24,634 nucleotides of DNA. Source: a virus. The stretch's first letter is position 1. The number at the start of each line of letters is the position of its first letter. Position numbers and translations under genes: made by a program. The DNA lies in IMG/VR virus record IMGVR_UViG_3300035701_000278, positions 1-24,634 of that record. One strand, written 5' to 3'. Of this stretch, positions 5,584 through 24,626 are shown piece after piece. The notes beneath the pieces are model-generated. The model saw nothing but the letters and a program-made list of their open reading frames with translations, was not told where the DNA came from and made no database searches.

Positions 5584-5733
5584 TTAACCCCTCTTATTCA
5601 CTAGCACTTCGCCAGTATCTTTATCTTTTATTAGTAAATGGCATTGAACTTCCATCTTTGCCACATCAATGAAACCGGATTCCTTTTGTGGTTCTGGTTT
5701 TACCCCATTGTTGTTATTTTCTTTATTTATCAC
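5584..5733 (-). CDS. Small 49-aa protein with HLLIKDKDTGEVLVNKRG C-terminus
   Basis: A GTG at 5731-5733 opens a 49-codon frame ending at TAA 5584-5586, three bases before the ATG of the 257-aa gene. The protein begins MINKENNNNGVKPEPQKES (GTG read as Met), a hydrophilic segment, followed by FIDVAKMEVQCHLLIKDKD and TGEVLVNKRG. The C-terminal motif matches the N-terminus of the next gene (KIIDKDTGEVLVD), and small proteins ending this way occur, as I recall, next to baseplate genes of T4-like phages. The tight coupling and motif argue that it is real although very short. The start is uncertain: GTG overlaps the GATAAATA promoter motif, so a transcript from that promoter would lack it, leaving the in-frame ATG at 5653-5655 (23 aa). 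An AGG 11 bases before GTG could serve read-through mRNA. Confidence 0.6.
   Translation of the reverse strand: MINKENNNNGVKPEPQKESGFIDVAKMEVQCHLLIKDKDTGEVLVNKRG
5724..5731 (-). promoter_or_regulatory. Late-promoter motif GATAAATA after the giant gene
   Basis: Exact GATAAATA, five bases after AGGTAGATAAT, serving the 49-aa, 257-aa and fibre genes. It overlaps the putative GTG start of the 49-aa gene (GTGATAAATA), so either that start is used only from read-through mRNA or translation starts further in. Confidence 0.55.
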
Positions 5734-8700: not shown

Positions 8701-11700
8701 AATAATAATTTACTTCTGTAATACCTGTGAACCTATTAGATGTCGATACTTGGACATAAGAAGTAATGTCTCTTGGTACGCCTGTGCCTGTATACTGTGC
8801 AGGTGGTACTGAACTCTTTACCCATTCGTAGATAGCAACAGTTGACCCTGGGAACAATTGCGCCCAATGATCGCGTCTGTAAATTAGATTATCTACTGAT
8901 GTTTCGCTGCCATCTAGCGCAATAGGCTGTTCATAATAAACAAATCGTGTACTTGAAATATCCCACCATAGTTTGCCAACTTGTGCTTCACTAAATGTAA
9001 TATTTTCACTAAACAGTCTCTCATTACTTGTAACATTATATGTTGCAGGGTCCTGGAGAGAGATGTAAGTGATATTCTGTTTTGCCGGGCCAGGGAGAAT
9101 AAATTTAAATGGATCATAGATTGGCAACTGAACAATCTCAGTTCCGGAAGTATTGAATACACTTGCACTTTCAAATAGGTGAGTATTGATTAGCGGTTCT
9201 TGTGTTCTGAATGGCTGATGTCCTGTTGGGTATTGTATTGTTGGTGTAATAACAGTAAAAACATTCCAAATTGGTGGATTTAGGTTAATTCCGTCAACCC
9301 AAATCTTATCACCTAATGAAACATATGTAGGTGTGCTGACTGCTGGTTCTGTTAGGAATCTCATTGTCTTAAATAACATCAGTTTTGTGAAATTTACATA
9401 ATCGGGTATGTCTGTGGCACTTATAGGATTACCTTCAAGTGTTAGCAGATTGTAATAATTATGTAACGGATCACTATTTGTTTCAATATCATTGAATGCA
9501 AATGCAACTGCGTAATTTGTTGCAGGTGCTACAGAAGGTGGCAGAGCAATTTCTATTGTTGCTGCCGATGTGTAGCCAGAACCTGCAGTATCGATAATAA
9601 TTTCGGATACCACACCACCGGCAATTGTAGCATGGGCAGTTGCACCTACGCCCGGACCATTAGCATTGATTGTTACAACTGGAGCAACATTATAGTTTGC
9701 ACCAGATTTTGTTATTGTTGCACCAAGGATAGCACCACTCGGTGCCGGTGGAGGAGCAATAGTCAAAGTAGCAAAAGTATAATTTACGCCGCCCTGATTG
9801 ATAATAATATTTGTAACTTGTCCATCGGTAATTGTTGTAGTAGCAGATGCACCTACACCATCACCTGCAATTAGTATTGCAGGTGCAACAGTATAGAATG
9901 CACCAGGATTAGTAATTGTTGTAGAGAATACAGTTCCGTTGCCCAATGGTGGTTCTATTGTTACTGTTGGTGTAATAATAAATCCAGAACCTGGTTCCGT
10001 AACTATAATACTGGTAACAATACCAGCATCAACGACCGCAATAGCTGTTGAAACAGTATTTACATTTGTTGGGTCGGCAATAGTTACTGCAGGAATAGAT
10101 GTATATCCAGAGCCACCGGCAATAACAAAACCAGTTACTACACCAGCTGCTATAGTTGCAGTAGCTGTTGCCGGGGTTCCTACTGGAGCAAGACCTATGG
10201 TAACTGTTGGTGGAGAAATATATCCACCGCCCGATGAAATTATAGAAACACCAGTCACAGTTCCGTTGCTTATAGTTGCTGAGGCAGTAGCTGTACTGCC
10301 GGTAGGTATGTCGATTGAAATTGTAGCACTAGAATATCCAGATCCAATATCTGTAATATTAAAACCAGTAACAATTCCATCTGCTACTATTGCTGTTGCA
10401 GTTGCTTGATTACCTGTCGGTGCGGCAATAGTAATCGTGGTAGTTACTAATACATATCCAGTGCCGCCATTGGTGATATTAAATCCAGTAACAATGCCGC
10501 CGGAGATTATTGCTACCGCTGTTGCACCAACCCCGGTCACATCATTAATTGTCACCAATGGTGCAAAATCATACCCTAATCCCGTATTAGTAATATTAAT
10601 TGTTTTCACGACGCCGCCGACAATTACAGGATCACCTGTTGCAGTTATTAATGCATTAGGTGCAGAAATTGTTACAGTTGGGGCAATTATATATCCTGCA
10701 CCATTATTTGTTATATCGATTGTTTCTATACCAGTGTCTGCAATAGTTGCATTCGCTGTAGCAGGAGTTAATGTCGGCGGAGAGATTGTAACCGAAGGTA
10801 CTGAATAATATCCTAGGCCATTATTGGTAAGTATTATTGATTCAACCGATCCATTATTAATACTTGATGTTGCTGTAGCATTGATTACATTAGGTGGATC
10901 AATAGTTACGGCTGGTATAACAATATACCCAAAGCCGCCAGTACTCAATGGGAGAGATGTTACCACACCCGCTGTAACTACCGCAGAAGCTTGAGCTGTT
11001 TCGTTTGATGGTATATCAATACTAACTTGAGGGACAAAGGTATAACCTGCACCACCGGATACAATATTTAATCCGGCAACTTCTCCACTAATAATATTAG
11101 CTGTAGATGATGCAACAAATGGCACTAAAGCTGTTGCTGTAGCAGTTTCGGCAGGGCCATTTATTTCTAATGTGGCCTGTGCCTCAATGACCTGTAATGA
11201 GAGTAGATTTCCAAAATCAGTTTCGTTGGTGCCACCGGTAAATTGCGGAGTAATCAAATAAGCTGGATCTGTTCTTAGAAATAAATCTCCGGCAGCATTT
11301 TCTATCACATCAAACACAGATGCTGTTGTAATATCTATCATCTTATAGACATCCCAATCTTCTGTAAATGTTTTTGCTATCCAGATTGTGTTATTTTCCA
11401 CCGGATTGAAATTTGTTGTACCCCAGGACACAGCAACCTGATTAGTATCGAAAGAATTTAGGGTTACATCATTGAAGTTTACATATCCAGCATTAGGTAA
11501 CGGATAATCAATATTATTTGTTAAAGGAAATTCTAAAGCAACAGTTGGATCTGTAGGACGAATAACCCATTTATCAACTTCATCAATGTCAATATTAATA
11601 ATGTTATCAGGCGCTACATCGCTAATAATCTCACCTTGCCATACACTGTAGAGCTTGTCGAGGTTGTGTGGCTCAGCACCGGAATCGATACTTACTAATG

Positions 11701-17497: not shown

Positions 17498-17511
17498 GTA
17501 TGGTCCGGGTG

Positions 17512-17533
17512 GTAGGTGATATTATCTACCTAC
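17512..17533 (-). promoter_or_regulatory. Hairpin in the 5' leader of the giant gene
   Basis: On the minus strand GTAGGT (17533-17528) and ACCTAC (17517-17512) can form a 6-bp stem around a 10-base loop. It lies between the GATAAATA motif and the ATG at 17497. The same ACCTAC arm could pair instead with the upstream TAGGT copy (17555-17559) in read-through mRNA. No U-run follows, so it is not a standard terminator. Function unknown. Confidence 0.35.
17521..17532 (-). repeat. Intergenic element TAGGTAGATAAT, copy 2
   Basis: Second copy in the same gap, on the other side of the late-promoter motif; it forms the left arm and loop of the leader hairpin. Confidence 0.6.
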
Positions 17534-17541
17534 TATTTATC
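17534..17541 (-). promoter_or_regulatory. Late-promoter motif GATAAATA before the giant structural gene
   Basis: Exact GATAAATA in the 63-base gap after gp6, ending 36 bases before the giant gene ATG. It is preceded at six bases by AGGTAGATAAT and followed at two bases by a second copy of that element. Confidence 0.6.
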
Positions 17542-17560: not shown

Positions 17561-20500
17561 TTAAACGCGAAGATTCTGGTCTGTAAGATTTGCTACAATC
17601 TGTACATTATTTACTGTAGCAGTAGACATGAATAATTCTGTTGGACTTGCTATAATTTCAAATAAATTACCAAATTGTGAATTGGCACTACTTGGGACAA
17701 TAACAACAGAACTAATAATTCTCGATAATTGTTGATGGATAAATGCTGACAATTCTGACCAGAAGAATTTCTCACCAAAGTCCCAGTTTCTAATATCGAA
17801 GTAGGTGTCAATTGCTTGAATTACTTTTGTTTTAACTTCGTTATCACTAATACTTGTTGATGGTGCCTTTACAACCTTAATAGTTGCCTGCAATTCTGAT
17901 GCAGCCTGCGGACCGAACAGAATCTTAAATGATCCAGAATTCCAAATCATCGAATCACTAACCATTTTATATTGATCGAGCGATTGAAATTGAATACGTA
18001 ATTCTTCTGTTGTTGGTGGTTCTGGCATAGCAATAATGCTACCATTACTATTTTTCCAAATTAACATATCTCTATAGAAACTATCTGTAATAACAACCAT
18101 ATCAATAATGTTAGTTGGCGATGGATCAACACGTTGATCAATTGGAGAATAATGACTCCACTTAAAGTATAATGGTAATCTCTCATCTTCTGCAACTGTT
18201 GTATTCTGTGTAAATACCTTTCCATTCTTATCAAAGTGATATTTGTCAAGAAGTGTAATAAATGTTTGTCCGGTAGGATATGTAACTAAGTTTGCCGATG
18301 TCCCGGTATCAAAAGAATAATATACACCAAATCCTGGAGGGCTGATACTAGAAATTAGGAATGATTTATTTATAAAATATGTTGTTAGGATATTTGACTT
18401 ATCAACAACAGTGGTGGTACCGGCTAACCATGGAAAGAATATAAGTTGTGACGGAATTGGACCATTGAAAAATGCAGTTATCTGATTTGCGATGGATTGG
18501 GTTGCTGGCGCTATCGAATTAAAGAGCATCTGTGATATATTATTCACAAAAATTAAATCTGCACTATCCATGTAAACTGTTGTTGCTGGTGGTGGATCGT
18601 ATTGACTTCCTGGACCAGTTCCGCCTACGAGCAACACGCTAGAAATAAACGGTGGGCTAAAAAGTTGAGTATTATCAAATAAGTCTACAGGAAAATAAAC
18701 ATATAAATCTGTTGCAACATTTGCCATTGTAGTTGCCCAATTTGTAATCCATGGGCGGGTACTTTGATATCCGGTAACTTCGTTATTATAGAATTCAAAT
18801 ACAATTCTATCTTCCGGCGACACAATCTGATTAAACCCGTCTGGATTATCAGCAATACCATCATTGTTATTATCAATTAGTGATACTTCAACTTTTGAGG
18901 TATCAACATAACCATCAACTTGGGTGAACACACCTGTAATATTAAACGGTACCTGTTTTCTTAAGAATGCGTTCTGTGGATTTGGAATGGGCGACGGTGG
19001 TAGATTATTGTCAATTGAACTATTTGTATTAACAAAAGGCATAATCTCGATAGTATCTTCTAACGCTAATCCTGTTGAATTATCAATAACAACCTGTCCC
19101 GGTTCCCAAAAGAAGCGAACATCTCTATAAGACTCAAAAACATATACACGACCGCGAGCAGTCAAATCATATGTGGTAATACCGAGCTCGTTATTACTTG
19201 CAATGCTTACATATAATAACCCACTGGCTGCATAAGGTGCCCAATCTGAATAAATTTCTTCTGTTGGTAATCCATCATCGATAGGTGGTGCATATACCCA
19301 TGGTTGATCTGCCTGATTTGTTAATCCCGGTGTTGCAGCAGTAGATGTATGCCACTCGTCCGTTAATAGATCATAATAAAGCCAGAATGAAATTCCATTA
19401 TCGATAGCAATAACAATCTCGGCAATTTCTGTAGTATTTAAGTCATTTCTAAAAATCGGAAATACTCTGACTGCCTGATAATTAAGTTGTTCCTCAACAC
19501 CTAATTCAACTGGCCCTATATTAGCATAAGGATTTAATGGATTAATAATCAACGGAATTCCATTCTGAATAACACTTCGAACCGATGTTGAATTTAGTGT
19601 TGATGGAATTAAAGGATTTACAAATTCTAATACTGAACCAGAGGTAATGAATTCCCAGGGTTGGTAAACATTTAAGTTAGCTGTATCGGGATTAAGTGAG
19701 GTTAATGTGTTCACTAATCCCACAGCAACAGTTGATATTGTAGAATTTGTAAAGAATCCAGTATCATTTTTAAATTTTTGCGGGCTTGTTTTCCAGAACA
19801 GTGGGAGTTGAAAGGGATTACTTAGATCCAATAGTGAGAATCCCGGGTCGGCCGGTAGTTGTTTATTCACACGAATCGTATTTTCAAATTGTGGAAGATA
19901 TTCATCATAGAAAAATTCAGATACCTGTGGATCTCTAAGCATTTCTTGAATTGTATTAATTAGGATATTTTCGATTGTTCCAGCATTGGATGAGTCTTGT
20001 ATAACTTCAACTAATACATTTTGATTATCTCTATATAATGCCCCGTCTTGGCCAAATATAATTAGATCCCTGTGAAATCCGGTTGGATCATTTAAATCAA
20101 TGTAACGGCTTTGTCCGCTATATGTTCTGTCAATTGCCTGTATTTTAGCAATCTGATTTCCAAACACAAGTGGTAAGACATTATAATCACTACCATTAAC
20201 CATTCTTGATTGTGTTGAAAATACCTCTGGGGCACGAAGGCGAATCTGTTCGTCTGTTTCGGAAGGTGCAGCATTACCGATTGTTTGTTCGAGATTGAAA
20301 ACAATGCGTAACACATATTCTTGCTGATCAAATCCAATATACGGAATATTGATTTGTAGGCCTTGTGCATCATCTGGACGGATTACAAGGGCCTGATTGG
20401 CGCTTACACGAACCCAGAATCTAAACAATCCAGTTGGTACATTACCAAAATTACCATCGGCAAAACGTATTGAAACATTATTGTTTGCACCAGAAATTAC

Positions 20501-21493
20501 ATCAAATATATTTCTTTCAGCAAATTGAATGCTATTATAGATAACATTTTCACCAGCGAGTGCAGGAACCTTTACCCATTTGTTAATAACGGTACCGCTG
20601 CCATCAGTCTCTTGGGCATACACATCGTCCTGATTAATGTTTTGAATATCAATCGGAAATACACGATTAGGAACAGGAAATTCAAAGTTGGTATCGATAT
20701 TTAGAAGATTACCTTGTTTGAAATATAAGAAGAATCCGGTATTAGATGATGATACCCCTAAGCTATCATTTCTATAGATAAAGTTAAATGCATTAGCAGG
20801 ATCTGGATCACGCTCAAATATTGTTTCATTTGTAACAAAATCTGGATTACATACATCAATTGGATATTCTTGTCCACTAACTGTAACAGATGTAGGATAT
20901 GTGACATTTAGACGAGGAATACTGTTTAGCTGATATAGATCAGTTGGAATTGACCCAATTGTGCCACTCTTTGTTGGACGCCCAAACGGGTTAAGTGTGC
21001 TGAATGCGGCATTGCAAACTTGCACAAATTGATCGAACCAATCTGGATTGTTTGGATCATTCCAAAAGATTGCTGTGTCGTTAATGTTTATGCCATTTGC
21101 ATCTGTTAGTGGTTGATTGGTTTGTACTGCGGCAATCTTAAACAATCCGCTTGCCGGAATATTTCTGCGTGGAACATAGTTAACCATCTGAGCAAGACGA
21201 ATAATACTTTCACGACGTTCAGCAGTATCAATGAAATTTTCACGACTATTAAGATCGGTTCTAAATGCAAGACTTGTACCAAAATATGCAAGCAATTCAA
21301 TAATTGCAATAAATTCAGAACTTTCAATATAATCGTTGAAATCTTCTGGATAGTAAGTTTGAATATAGTTAATTAGGGCCTGCTTTAATGTGTCAAAGTC
21401 GTAGGCAGTATAATCGATAAACGCAAAGGCCTTAAAAATCTTCTTATAATCCTCTCCTGCGAAAAGGTTTGATTGGCGGATTGATTCTGACAT
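17561..21493 (-). CDS. gp6: Baseplate wedge protein gp6, double-length form
   Basis: 1310 aa, ATG at 21491-21493 overlapping the gp25 stop by one base (TAATG). The N-terminus carries the T4 gp6 signature: a segment like LINYIQTYYPEDFNDYIESS, then FIAIIELLAYFGTSLAFR and DLNSRENFIDTAERRESI, then RLAQMVNYVPRR. Around residues 405-440 stands the J-like core (ETDEQIRLRAPEVFSTQSR). The C-terminal ~95 residues (TYFDIRNWDFGEKFFWSELS, SVVIVP, NLFEIIASPTELFMSTATV) match the gp6 C-terminus. gp6 forms the inner wedge dimer that rings the tail hub and opens when the sheath contracts. T4 gp6 has 660 residues, so roughly 600 extra residues sit between core and C-terminus (~520-1180). Those are beta-rich and unfamiliar and may replace peripheral wedge proteins. 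The identification is firm; the role of the insertion is unknown. Confidence 0.95.
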   Translation of the reverse strand: MSESIRQSNLFAGEDYKKIFKAFAFIDYTAYDFDTLKQALINYIQTYYPEDFNDYIESSEFIAIIELLAYFGTSLAFRTDLNSRENFIDTAERRESIIRLAQMVNYVPRRNIPASGLFKIAAVQTNQPLTDANGININDTAIFWNDPNNPDWFDQFVQVCNAAFSTLNPFGRPTKSGTIGSIPTDLYQLNSIPRLNVTYPTSVTVSGQEYPIDVCNPDFVTNETIFERDPDPANAFNFIYRNDSLGVSSSNTGFFLYFKQGNLLNIDTNFEFPVPNRVFPIDIQNINQDDVYAQETDGSGTVINKWVKVPALAGENVIYNSIQFAERNIFDVISGANNNVSIRFADGNFGNVPTGLFRFWVRVSANQALVIRPDDAQGLQINIPYIGFDQQEYVLRIVFNLEQTIGNAAPSETDEQIRLRAPEVFSTQSRMVNGSDYNVLPLVFGNQIAKIQAIDRTYSGQSRYIDLNDPTGFHRDLIIFGQDGALYRDNQNVLVEVIQDSSNAGTIENILINTIQEMLRDPQVSEFFYDEYLPQFENTIRVNKQLPADPGFSLLDLSNPFQLPLFWKTSPQKFKNDTGFFTNSTISTVAVGLVNTLTSLNPDTANLNVYQPWEFITSGSVLEFVNPLIPSTLNSTSVRSVIQNGIPLIINPLNPYANIGPVELGVEEQLNYQAVRVFPIFRNDLNTTEIAEIVIAIDNGISFWLYYDLLTDEWHTSTAATPGLTNQADQPWVYAPPIDDGLPTEEIYSDWAPYAASGLLYVSIASNNELGITTYDLTARGRVYVFESYRDVRFFWEPGQVVIDNSTGLALEDTIEIMPFVNTNSSIDNNLPPSPIPNPQNAFLRKQVPFNITGVFTQVDGYVDTSKVEVSLIDNNNDGIADNPDGFNQIVSPEDRIVFEFYNNEVTGYQSTRPWITNWATTMANVATDLYVYFPVDLFDNTQLFSPPFISSVLLVGGTGPGSQYDPPPATTVYMDSADLIFVNNISQMLFNSIAPATQSIANQITAFFNGPIPSQLIFFPWLAGTTTVVDKSNILTTYFINKSFLISSISPPGFGVYYSFDTGTSANLVTYPTGQTFITLLDKYHFDKNGKVFTQNTTVAEDERLPLYFKWSHYSPIDQRVDPSPTNIIDMVVITDSFYRDMLIWKNSNGSIIAMPEPPTTEELRIQFQSLDQYKMVSDSMIWNSGSFKILFGPQAASELQATIKVVKAPSTSISDNEVKTKVIQAIDTYFDIRNWDFGEKFFWSELSAFIHQQLSRIISSVVIVPSSANSQFGNLFEIIASPTELFMSTATVNNVQIVANLTDQNLRV

Positions 21494-21912
21494 TAGAAAG
21501 TCTCTCTATCTTTAAGTGAAAAAATAACAAATAGGTTATCAGTTATTGATTCGGGTTTAAATAATAAAACCATAACAATATTTAAGGCCTGATCTTCTTG
21601 AAATGCATCAATTGATACAAGTTCTACTCTTGGTTCTGATTGGATGACGTTAACCGCATCTGCTATAATTGCACCCTTTGTATATTCATCAAATGGATCA
21701 AATAAGTAATCATAAATTCTTGTGCCAAAGTTAGGTAACATTACCCTTGACCCAAGTGGTGTGGCAAATGTATTTTCAATATCTCTTTTTACTAATTCAA
21801 TATTATTGAGGTTATAGGGAGGGGAAGGCTGTCCTACAGTGTTGAATCCAACAAAGTAGGGCTTCCTATCAATGCGTTTTGGTTGAACTAAACCTTTCTG
21901 ATTTGATGCCAT
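21493..21912 (-). CDS. gp25: Baseplate wedge protein gp25 (GPW/gp25 family)
   Basis: 139 aa, close to T4 gp25 (132 aa). ATG at 21910-21912, with AAAGAGAA (21917-21924) just upstream as ribosome binding site. The family core is clear: ELVKRDIENTFATPLGSR, then NFGTRIYDYLFDPFDEYT, and the conserved EPR triplet at residues 93-95 (SEPRVELVSI). gp25 joins the first sheath ring to the inner wedge and is one of the most conserved parts of contractile injection machines. The gene is coupled to gp6 by TAATG. Its leader holds a GATAAATA late-promoter motif within the loop of a perfect inverted repeat whose near arm includes the ribosome binding site (see regulatory entry). The N-terminal ~35 residues before the core are Pro/Asn-rich and probably extended. 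Confidence 0.97.
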   Translation of the reverse strand: MASNQKGLVQPKRIDRKPYFVGFNTVGQPSPPYNLNNIELVKRDIENTFATPLGSRVMLPNFGTRIYDYLFDPFDEYTKGAIIADAVNVIQSEPRVELVSIDAFQEDQALNIVMVLLFKPESITDNLFVIFSLKDRETF

Positions 21913-21913
21913 A

Positions 21914-21946
21914 TAATTCTCTTTCTGTTATTTATCAAGAGAATTA
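21914..21946 (-). promoter_or_regulatory. Perfect 10-bp inverted repeat enclosing the gp25 late promoter and ribosome binding site
   Basis: On the minus strand TAATTCTCTT (21946-21937) is followed by a 13-base loop and then AAGAGAATTA (21923-21914), an exact reverse complement. The right arm contains the gp25 Shine-Dalgarno sequence (AAGAGAA) and ends one base before the ATG. The loop contains GATAAATA. In mRNA arriving from upstream genes the hairpin would hide the ribosome binding site. mRNA started at the loop promoter would lack the left arm and leave the site free. This is the layout known for T4 genes such as e, soc and the intron endonuclease I-TevI. The function here is inferred. Confidence 0.6.
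21929..21936 (-). promoter_or_regulatory. Late-promoter motif GATAAATA before gp25
   Basis: Exact GATAAATA in the 46-base gap between the HNH stop and gp25 ATG, 16 bases from the start codon. It lies entirely within the loop of an inverted repeat. Transcription from it would begin close to the ribosome binding site, giving a very short leader. Confidence 0.65.
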
Positions 21947-21958
21947 AGTAGGACTATA

Positions 21959-22642
21959 TTAAGCGGAAGATTTTCTATTTGCCCAATATTCCTTCATTTT
22001 TATCGATCTTTTTATTTTTGATTCTTCCGAGATAATCTGTTTCAATCTTGCATCTTTCATCTTTTGTTTAGACTCATCGGAATGTGTTTTACCATAAAAA
22101 TGATTATTTTCACCTATATGAGACCTGCTTATTTTTTTACAGGTTTCTTCTGTGTGATTTTTACCTAAGTTTGCTTGTCTAAGTTTTTCTTTGGTATCTT
22201 CTGTCACCCGGTGGCCCATTTGTGCTTCGGACATATTCTTTCTTACTTCTACAGAACGATTCTGTTGTGCATATGTTATCTTATCTTGCACTTCCTTTGG
22301 TCTATTCTGTTGTGCTGCAGACATTTTCTGTCTTGTTTCATCAGACACAATCCTATTTGACATTATTTCGGCATGCTTTCTTCTTAACCACCCATATTCT
22401 TTATTATTTTTAACTCGATTTATCATCCATTTTGCTGCATATATTAAACTGGGATTATTATATATTTTTACCAATAATAGATGTGCCACAAGATGTTCTT
22501 CTGGTGTAAGATCGACTAAATTTATAGGATCATTAGTACCTCCTATACATCTCGGAATAATATGATGATATTCGGTGTATCCGTTTATTGTTCTGCATCG
22601 TGCTCTTTCTATAAGGCGAGTATAATGTATATTATAATTCAT
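21959..22642 (-). CDS. Free-standing HNH homing endonuclease with NUMOD3 repeats
   Basis: 227 aa, ATG at 22640-22642. The HNH nuclease is at residues ~22-58: EYHHIIPRCIGG (HH at 26-27), Asn41 in PINLVDL, then PEEHLVAHLL (His50, His54), the usual order for phage group HNH nucleases. From ~99 to 200 several NUMOD3-type DNA-binding motifs follow, for instance SDETRQKMSAAQ, TEDTKEKLRQANLGK, TEETCKKISRSHIGE and SDESKQKMKDARL. The basic C-terminus (IKRSIKMKEYWANR) fits DNA contact. Such enzymes cut a homologous phage genome near their insertion site and spread by repair. It separates the gp5-like and gp25 genes, which are usually close, and no intron is implied because both neighbours are intact. 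It looks more AT-rich than its neighbours, consistent with separate ancestry. A GATAAATA motif 28 bases upstream may drive it late. Confidence 0.9.
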   Translation of the reverse strand: MNYNIHYTRLIERARCRTINGYTEYHHIIPRCIGGTNDPINLVDLTPEEHLVAHLLLVKIYNNPSLIYAAKWMINRVKNNKEYGWLRRKHAEIMSNRIVSDETRQKMSAAQQNRPKEVQDKITYAQQNRSVEVRKNMSEAQMGHRVTEDTKEKLRQANLGKNHTEETCKKISRSHIGENNHFYGKTHSDESKQKMKDARLKQIISEESKIKRSIKMKEYWANRKSSA

Positions 22643-22670
22643 CTAAATCTCTAAATAAATATTATAATAT

Positions 22671-22678
22671 TATTTATC
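22671..22678 (-). promoter_or_regulatory. Late-promoter motif GATAAATA before the HNH gene
   Basis: The motif reads GATAAATA on the minus strand and overlaps the TAA stop of the gp5-like gene. It ends 28 bases before the HNH ATG. It fits the NATAAATA late consensus of T4-like cyanophages (T4: TATAAATA). Confidence 0.6.
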
Positions 22679-24626
22679 CCTTTCGGTCGCAGCCGTTTGG
22701 GTCAACATTATTAACAATCATGGTAATAATATTTGGACCACGACGACCCACTTGTGTGAACCACCTTGATTGCCTTAGTGAATCTCCTGCGGCATTGTAA
22801 TTTCTTGCCTTCATTGCAGCTATAAATCTTACAAACTTTGAGAGTCTTCCTTCTCCCATATTATAGCATAGGTCAGCACAGGCACGTTTTCTTATATCTG
22901 TTAATTCGCCCCATACATCAATACCTAATAATCGTTGGGCGCCTGATATAGAAATAGATGCATCTTGTTCAAACCACTGATCTACTTGTTCCTTAGAAAT
23001 AATAGTTGGTACAGGAAATTTTATCTTTTCATTTGTACGAAATAGGTGCCCAATTCCACCTGTTGGTAAATTTTTTGTATCTAAGTAAGAAACATATTTA
23101 ATACCTTCGTGAATCTTTAGTTGACACTTATATGCCTCCAGATTAAAATTCTTTGAGACTGCACTTTCGTTTGCCGGCGTTGGTGGTATATCTGTATTAT
23201 TCGCACCAGGTGTTGTATCGGTTGGTGGTGATGCGGTTGCCTCACTGCCTGCGCCACCTGAGCCTGCATATGTTTTTGCCCCGTCTGTTTGCGTCGGTGT
23301 ATAGCCTGTAATTGATTTGAATGTGAAATTTTCATGTTCTGGACATGGTTCATAGGTCGGTAATGTACTAACCGTTGTCTGTAATGCCTCAGCATTTCTT
23401 TTAAATTTAGATTCTGGATCAGACCAAGTGGCAAGAATATTAATCTTCTCAACCTGTTGTTTAATTTCTGCTGGTGTTGATTTAGTTGCCTTTGATGCAG
23501 CACTTGCATCTGTGGGCGAAATAGGTTTATTAGTTGGGACAGCACCACCGAGTTGCACGGCGCCACCAAGGAAGGAACCTGCTGTAACCTTTAAAGTTGA
23601 ATTTATTTCGACGCCGCCTGTAATTCTCGACTTGCCTGTAATATCAAAGAATTTTGCTGCTGAAAGAATATTTGTATCAGCTTTTAGGTTGATACTTGTA
23701 CCTGTACTAATTGATGTCATAGTTCCAGATTTCAAATTATACTCTGCATCTGTTTGTGTATGAATATCGCCGGCCGACTTGTAATCTTGTTTTCCAGAGG
23801 TAGTGGTTAGCGCATAATTGTTTTCAATTAGAACAATATTATCTTTGCCAACGGTTATAAAGAAATCCTTAAGCACATCTATATTTGAATTATTCTTTAC
23901 TGTTTGAAAAGAATCTTTATGAACAGTTGTGTGCATATTATTGAGTGCTTGTACTACAATATTGCCGCCCTCACCAGCGCCTTCACCTACATATTTGTAT
24001 AATGGAATAGTTTGTGTATTAGGGATATTATTAATATCGTATGTGAATGTCGTAGTGGAAGTAGTTGTATCTTTAGCAGCCTTCATAAAGATATTTTGAC
24101 CTGCTTCAATATTGATGTTTCTATCTGCACGTAGGTTAATGTCTTTCTGAGCACGCATTGAAATATTTGTTGCACCAAAAATATCTATATTACCCTTCTG
24201 ATCCATTTGCACCCAGGCAGTACCGTCTCGATTAATTAGGTAAACGAATCCATTTGTTTCATCTAGTTTAATCTGTGCTCCAGATTTAGTAGTTAATTGA
24301 ACATACTCGGATCCGCTCTCGTCATCCATAATAAAGGATGAACCGCCCTTTCTTCTAATATTAGCAGGAGACGCGGTAGTGTCGATAACTGGTCCCGGTG
24401 TTAGAATTCCAAAAACTGTACTAGGGGATTCGCGGCGAGCACTTGAGGTGGTAATACCGCGGCCTTGGTCGGTAATTAATCCCTGATTTCCCAATCCTTG
24501 AAACTTTGTTTTTTCGTAAGGTTTAGTTGCTCTGTCGGGCTGCGTTACCTTTAGATCCCATTTATTATATTCAGCTACGGGTATTAATTTTTCCGGATAT
24601 TGATAATTATTCGCATCAGCAGCCAT
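22674..24626 (-). CDS. gp5: gp5-like central spike protein with C-terminal T4-type tail lysozyme
   Basis: 650 aa, ATG at 24624-24626, eight bases from the window edge. Residues ~95-185 (FIMDDESGSEYVQL, SGAQIKLDETNG, then NISMRAQKDINLRADRNINI) and ~290-350 are spike-type beta repeats like those of gp5 and VgrG needles. LPTYEPCPEHENF (422-434) is the motif I associate with gp5/VgrG proteins. A Pro/Thr/Gly/Ala-rich linker (~450-490) leads to a GH24 lysozyme (~495-648). Its KIHEGIKYVSYLDTKNLPTG keeps Glu507, Asp516 and Thr522 at the spacing of T4 lysozyme Glu11, Asp20 and Thr26, followed by GIGHL. The protein should puncture the outer membrane and cut peptidoglycan at infection. In T4 gp5 the lysozyme lies between the OB fold and the needle; here it is last. 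A classical OB fold is not obvious at the N-terminus. Confidence 0.9.
   Translation of the reverse strand: MAADANNYQYPEKLIPVAEYNKWDLKVTQPDRATKPYEKTKFQGLGNQGLITDQGRGITTSSARRESPSTVFGILTPGPVIDTTASPANIRRKGGSSFIMDDESGSEYVQLTTKSGAQIKLDETNGFVYLINRDGTAWVQMDQKGNIDIFGATNISMRAQKDINLRADRNINIEAGQNIFMKAAKDTTTSTTTFTYDINNIPNTQTIPLYKYVGEGAGEGGNIVVQALNNMHTTVHKDSFQTVKNNSNIDVLKDFFITVGKDNIVLIENNYALTTTSGKQDYKSAGDIHTQTDAEYNLKSGTMTSISTGTSINLKADTNILSAAKFFDITGKSRITGGVEINSTLKVTAGSFLGGAVQLGGAVPTNKPISPTDASAASKATKSTPAEIKQQVEKINILATWSDPESKFKRNAEALQTTVSTLPTYEPCPEHENFTFKSITGYTPTQTDGAKTYAGSGGAGSEATASPPTDTTPGANNTDIPPTPANESAVSKNFNLEAYKCQLKIHEGIKYVSYLDTKNLPTGGIGHLFRTNEKIKFPVPTIISKEQVDQWFEQDASISISGAQRLLGIDVWGELTDIRKRACADLCYNMGEGRLSKFVRFIAAMKARNYNAAGDSLRQSRWFTQVGRRGPNIITMIVNNVDPNGCDRKG

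Follow-up and report, generated by a model that had tools for sequence, protein, structure and literature searches.

Organization of the gp25 locus

The window, that is, the whole stretch of DNA analyzed here, is a 24.6-kb fragment (24,634 nucleotides; IMG/VR record IMGVR_UViG_3300035701_000278) of an uncultivated virus whose closest isolated relatives in gp25 comparisons belong to the PA5oct-like Pseudomonas jumbo phages (47% identity; PA5oct is assigned to the Arenbergviridae). The genes and the elements of the hairpin upstream of gp25 are listed in Table 1. The minus-strand sequence 5' of gp25 is TAATTCTCTT-GATAAATAACAGA-AAGAGAATTA-T-ATG, in which the two arms form a perfect 10-bp inverted repeat (100% complementary, with 13 nt between them), the octamer GATAAATA lies in the loop and the AAGAGAA sequence ends 4 nt upstream of the gp25 ATG (21912-21910). 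The inverted repeat, the octamer in its loop and the Shine-Dalgarno sequence in the arm next to the ATG, as described in the original prediction, were thus all confirmed.

Table 1. Positions of genes and leader elements in the window.
Feature	Positions	Strand	Remarks
gp5-like baseplate hub/lysozyme gene	22674..24626	-	co-directional, upstream
Free-standing homing endonuclease gene	21959..22642	-	between gp5-like gene and hairpin; PHROG 655, NUMOD3
Hairpin 5' arm TAATTCTCTT	21937..21946	-	only in RNA reading in from upstream; conserved in relatives
Late-promoter-like octamer GATAAATA	21929..21936	-	in hairpin loop
Predicted late transcription start	21923	-	first base of 3' arm; 6 nt past octamer, T4 spacing
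Hairpin 3' arm AAGAGAATTA	21914..21923	-	contains Shine-Dalgarno-like AAGAGAA (21917-21923)
gp25-like baseplate wedge gene (139 aa)	21493..21912	-	Pfam GPW_gp25, PHROG 43
gp6-like baseplate wedge gene	17561..21493	-	directly 3' of gp25, overlapping gp25 stop
Leader of 3913-aa virion gene	17498..17541	-	own GATAAATA (17534-17541)

When folded as RNA, the 51-nt gp25 leader has a predicted energy of -8.9 kcal/mol (z -2.5; 4 of 200 shuffled sequences were equally stable), and in the AU-rich hairpin of the window the Shine-Dalgarno sequence is paired and the AUG is unpaired. No structure is predicted for RNAs whose 5' end is at the 3' arm or slightly upstream of it. Taken alone, the 10-bp repeat is unremarkable and near the chance level (the window contains two perfect hairpins with a stem of ≥10 bp and a loop of ≤20 nt; 30 dinucleotide shuffles averaged 0.63); the location of the hairpin together with its conservation is beyond chance. 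In particular, the coincidence of the repeat with the promoter and the Shine-Dalgarno sequence is remarkable because none of the 5' flanks of 121 other late-promoter sites paired with the 3' part of the gp25 hairpin as well as its own flank did. An Rfam scan of the window returned no match. A perfect 10-bp hairpin, CACCTGCAAT-TAGT-ATTGCAGGTG, is also present at 9862-9885, within the giant gene.

Late-promoter-like octamer and predicted transcription start

In the two largest related genomes, the octamer occurs 77 (G001) and 64 (G002) times, compared with 25 and 15 occurrences of the reversed word, an enrichment of approximately 3-4-fold over this control, and its occurrences lie mostly on one strand. 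Among 108 sites other than gp25, A is favored at the fifth and sixth bases past the octamer (64/108 and 71/108, respectively), and a TAATT element ahead of the octamer is absent as a shared feature. A relative of the PA5oct late sigma factor (gp55-like), 57-59% identical to it, is encoded in all six related contigs. Since the T4 late octamer spans -13 to -6 (PMC1524935), the same spacing predicts a late start at the first base of the 3' arm, and late mRNA beginning there would have an unstructured leader of 11 nt. Elsewhere in the window, the octamer at 5724-5731 (minus strand) lies ~144 nt upstream of the ATG of a 257-aa gene, which thus has a long leader.

Conservation and covariation of the hairpin arms

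Relatives of gp25 were identified at 71 loci in IMG/VR, 65 of which have enough upstream sequence to test for the hairpin. Using a cutoff of -5 kcal/mol or better, the hairpin is kept in 57 of these 65; the other eight have gp25 with a weak hairpin or none. Nearly all of the relatives' leaders are close to CATATAATTYTCTTGATAAATAACARAAAGRGAATTATATG, and in many of them the stem extends to as many as 14 bp and includes the AUG. In the 34 distinct leaders of the same length, pairs 4-7, which make up the Shine-Dalgarno core, are unbroken throughout, with 31 G-U cells and no A-C cell, and the changes in the arms are either G-U or compensatory. For example, L059 and L061 have an A-U pair exchanged for U-A, with both sides changed. 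Over 44 leaders, the covariation score was 0.200, compared with 0.164 for shuffled arms (0 of 500 shuffles as high) and at most 0.141 for slid partners, although such counts are inflated by relatedness and shared ancestry was incompletely removed. The mean fold energy was -8.12 kcal/mol with each leader's own arms and -6.60 kcal/mol with swapped arms, and none of 300 permutations was as good. On the gp25-gp6 tree, the C at -4 requires five changes, with C opposite G every time; in a tree-based independent-pairs sign test of this position, the direction was right throughout and, with so few events, not significant. The expectation that the arms would be kept as pairs in related phages is therefore borne out by the retained hairpins, by the covariation and by the comparison of own and swapped arms.

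The outer part of the stem behaves differently from the Shine-Dalgarno core. TAATT, at positions -10 to -6, hardly varies (43-45 of 45 leaders), whereas pairs 8-11, to which it contributes, are paired in 22-28 of 34 leaders, and TAATT stays in the 5' arm even where its partner has changed. Because TAATT is more conserved than its partner, a second constraint on this outer element is possible, and something beyond pairing may be holding it in place.

Genes upstream of gp25 and the homing endonuclease

A co-directional ORF ends 29-56 nt upstream of gp25 in every one of the 65 testable relatives. In G001, the cistrons preceding gp25 encode, in order, a virion structural protein, a baseplate wedge protein, a second virion structural protein and a gp5-like protein; the first of them is equipped with a separate GATAAATA, and farther out, on the opposite strand, is the divergently transcribed late-sigma gene. 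The gene order of G003 is like that of G001, with an endolysin-like gene directly before gp25. No hairpin of the gp25 type was found in the isolates PA5oct, Phosso and Atu_ph07, in which the upstream neighbor is on the other strand, a weak contrast given that it involves three distant isolates only and that all 65 close loci have a co-directional gene.

In the original prediction, read-through from the homing endonuclease was the reason for the hairpin. The window and L004 can be aligned as far as the last gp5-like codons; the match resumes at the old gp5 stop, and the endonuclease separates the two aligned parts. The endonuclease is absent from L004 and also from L006, near relatives with 96% identity in gp25, and the hairpin in both is identical to that of the window; at most of the 71 loci, sequence other than the window's endonuclease precedes the hairpin. 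Since the hairpin is unchanged with or without the endonuclease, it was not made for it, and we rejected the endonuclease as its reason. Judging from these alignments, the hairpin is older than the endonuclease, which is a late arrival. The co-directional gp5-like gene is the likely source of read-through into gp25. The insertion (21959-22680) removed the last gp5-like codons, so that the endonuclease gene now ends at the old gp5 stop, and there is overlap between the new gp5 stop and the endonuclease's GATAAATA (22671-22678).

Similar hairpins at other late promoters

In G001, the duplex between flank and leader reaches -10 kcal/mol or better at seven of 35 late-promoter sites, compared with an average of 2.4 for permuted flanks (p = 0.004; p = 0.012 without gp25). 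For the pooled late sites, eight such duplexes remained, vs 3.4 in the permuted set (p = 0.016), when gp25, a 119-aa gene and the giant gene were left out.

Among the promoter-in-hairpin leaders, the strongest is that of the 119-aa gene (-17 to -26 kcal/mol in eight relatives), with the Shine-Dalgarno sequence in the 3' arm. Sequence searches of PHROG, Pfam and PDB gave nothing significant for the gene product, and a structure search with a confident model returned an uncharacterised phage protein and weak matches to DUF4376. Loci of this gene include L084:4746+, L092:115+, L099:18828-, L113:12988+, L120:5483+ and L131-L138, and compensatory differences are found between genomes. In distant phages, the 119-aa gene is preceded by an unrelated hairpin containing a sigma70-like promoter (TTGAC...TATAAT), located 60 nt before the gene at L167, L184, L186-L188, L196, L209 and L210. 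The use of a different promoter in an unrelated hairpin suggests that the promoter-in-hairpin device has more than one origin.

The giant virion gene 3' of gp6 (3913 aa; leader at 17498-17541 of the window) has a nested leader, in which an outer stem containing GATAAATA covers the Shine-Dalgarno sequence and encloses an inner hairpin. The outer hairpin is weak in the window and strong in relatives (L219, L229, L238, L239, L242 and L249), and in L242 its stem has been rebuilt from unrelated sequence. In addition, HNH-type, GIY-YIG-like and endonuclease VII-like genes of G001 have a late octamer in a hairpin over the Shine-Dalgarno sequence (L075:17366-, L086:10587- and L088:6346-), like the hairpins of T4 I-TevI and gene 49. 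Perfect hairpins are also found directly 3' of the octamer (e.g., GTGCAT..ATGCAC) at L079:10176- and L078:2863-; they would be located at the 5' ends of late mRNAs and perhaps contribute to stability.

It is conceivable, if somewhat short of probable, that several late operons (gp25-gp6, the giant virion gene, the 119-aa gene and the endonucleases) are guarded by hairpins that act as a general checkpoint of transcript origin and not as an early/late timer. If so, a cistron would be translated only from RNA begun at its own promoter.

Proposed function and alternative explanations

We propose that the gp25 hairpin is probably a translational insulator tied to transcript origin, shielding gp25 from read-through out of the late operon before it. 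Polymerase entering from the preceding cistron (the gp5-like gene or the inserted endonuclease) would produce an mRNA with both arms, in which the 5' arm would pair with the Shine-Dalgarno arm, leading to poor translation of gp25 and perhaps of gp6 as well. By contrast, polymerase starting at the octamer in the loop would produce an RNA that begins with the first base of the 3' arm, could form no hairpin and would be translated. The arrangement of these elements makes it likely that gp25 expression is off from the long RNA and on from the short one, and the purpose would be to uncouple gp25-gp6 from the preceding late operon. Ribosomes terminating at the upstream stop, which is often ~8 nt before the arm, might melt the hairpin.

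The original prediction instead viewed the hairpin as an early-off/late-on timer, in which early or middle RNA extending into gp25 is silenced until the late sigma factor acts. The anatomy equals that of T4 e, soc, 49 and I-TevI (PMC3014915, PMC2988022), all six relatives have both GATAAATA and the gp55-like sigma factor, and T4 gene 25 itself is among the genes listed as having a sequestered ribosome binding site. Nevertheless, the cistrons upstream of gp25 in G001 and G003 are virion genes behind their own octamer and, with the late-sigma gene divergent, there is no nearby co-directional early gene, making a timer unlikely. What survives of the proposed T4-type switch is a Shine-Dalgarno sequence predicted to be hidden in the long RNA and a late RNA predicted to lack the 5' arm; the early-off purpose gains little support. 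Because the neighbors of gp25 are virion cistrons and so presumably late, insulation from late read-through is favored over a timer. The near invariance of TAATT, which, in the window and some relatives, is found before the giant virion gene too, could alternatively mean that the 5' arm serves as a promoter element, with incidental pairing. We consider this improbable, since the other late octamer sites (108) share no such element, variation at the C/T positions mostly preserves pairing, the arms are co-adapted and other genes form the same hairpin from unrelated sequences.

Two further readings have very little probability. Given the near-perfect inverted repeat that flanks the octamer, a dimeric repressor could use the DNA palindrome as an operator overlapping the late promoter, and T4 I-TevI does repress its own late promoter (PMC2988022); however, the differences between arms are compatible with G-U pairing, as in the Shine-Dalgarno core (31 G-U cells, no A-C), which suits RNA and not DNA, and the hairpin is the same whether or not the endonuclease gene is present. 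The position between two genes would also suit a processing or stability hairpin, at which an RNase cut frees gp25 mRNA, or an intrinsic terminator of the upstream gene. The stem is AU-rich, however, and the hairpin is not an intrinsic terminator because no U run follows either arm; with regard to processing, the Shine-Dalgarno sequence is inside the stem and there is no specific sign of a cleavage site.

As an insulator, the gp25 hairpin would be a T4-type device placed between two late operons; its arms covary in dozens of phages, and it makes the choice between timing and uncoupling testable. Hairpins of this kind could also serve as a simple predictor of late transcription starts in uncultivated giant phages.

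Comparison with known systems

The leader of T4 gene 25 has a "split" ribosome site and is listed, after Gruidl 1991, among those with a sequestered ribosome binding site (PMC3014915, PMC2988022). The two leaders belong to the same gene and both have RNA structure in the start region, but the T4 structure lies between the Shine-Dalgarno sequence and the AUG and raises translation, whereas here the Shine-Dalgarno sequence forms part of the 3' arm and is separated from the AUG by 4 nt. In addition, TATAAATA does not occur within 650 nt upstream of T4 gene 25. The architecture described here is therefore not that of T4 gene 25. Fold-back inhibition of the IS10/Tn10 transposase provides a different parallel, in that read-through RNA hides the ribosome site and RNA from the element's own promoter does not. 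As proposed for gp25, an origin outside leads to a hidden site, although IS10/Tn10 is a transposon with a bacterial promoter and there is no sequence relation.

The usual explanation of the T4 hairpins is that they prevent early translation. The leaders of T4 e, soc, 49 and I-TevI, together with those of segB and Aeh1 mobE, have the Shine-Dalgarno sequence and/or the AUG in the 3' arm and the octamer in the hairpin, and their late RNA is devoid of the 5' arm; the long RNA of T4 is early or middle (PMC3014915, PMC2988022). The gp25 hairpin belongs to this already known kind: both the predicted fold and the covariation indicate that its Shine-Dalgarno sequence or AUG is paired in RNA started upstream, the late promoter is placed such that late RNA from the predicted start would lack the 5' arm, and a gp55-like late sigma factor accompanies it in the six related contigs, the window itself being a fragment. 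Unlike the T4 hairpins, it is found in a different phage lineage and on a baseplate gene, such hairpins accompany several late promoters within one phage and, by gene order, the long RNA over gp25 would itself be late.
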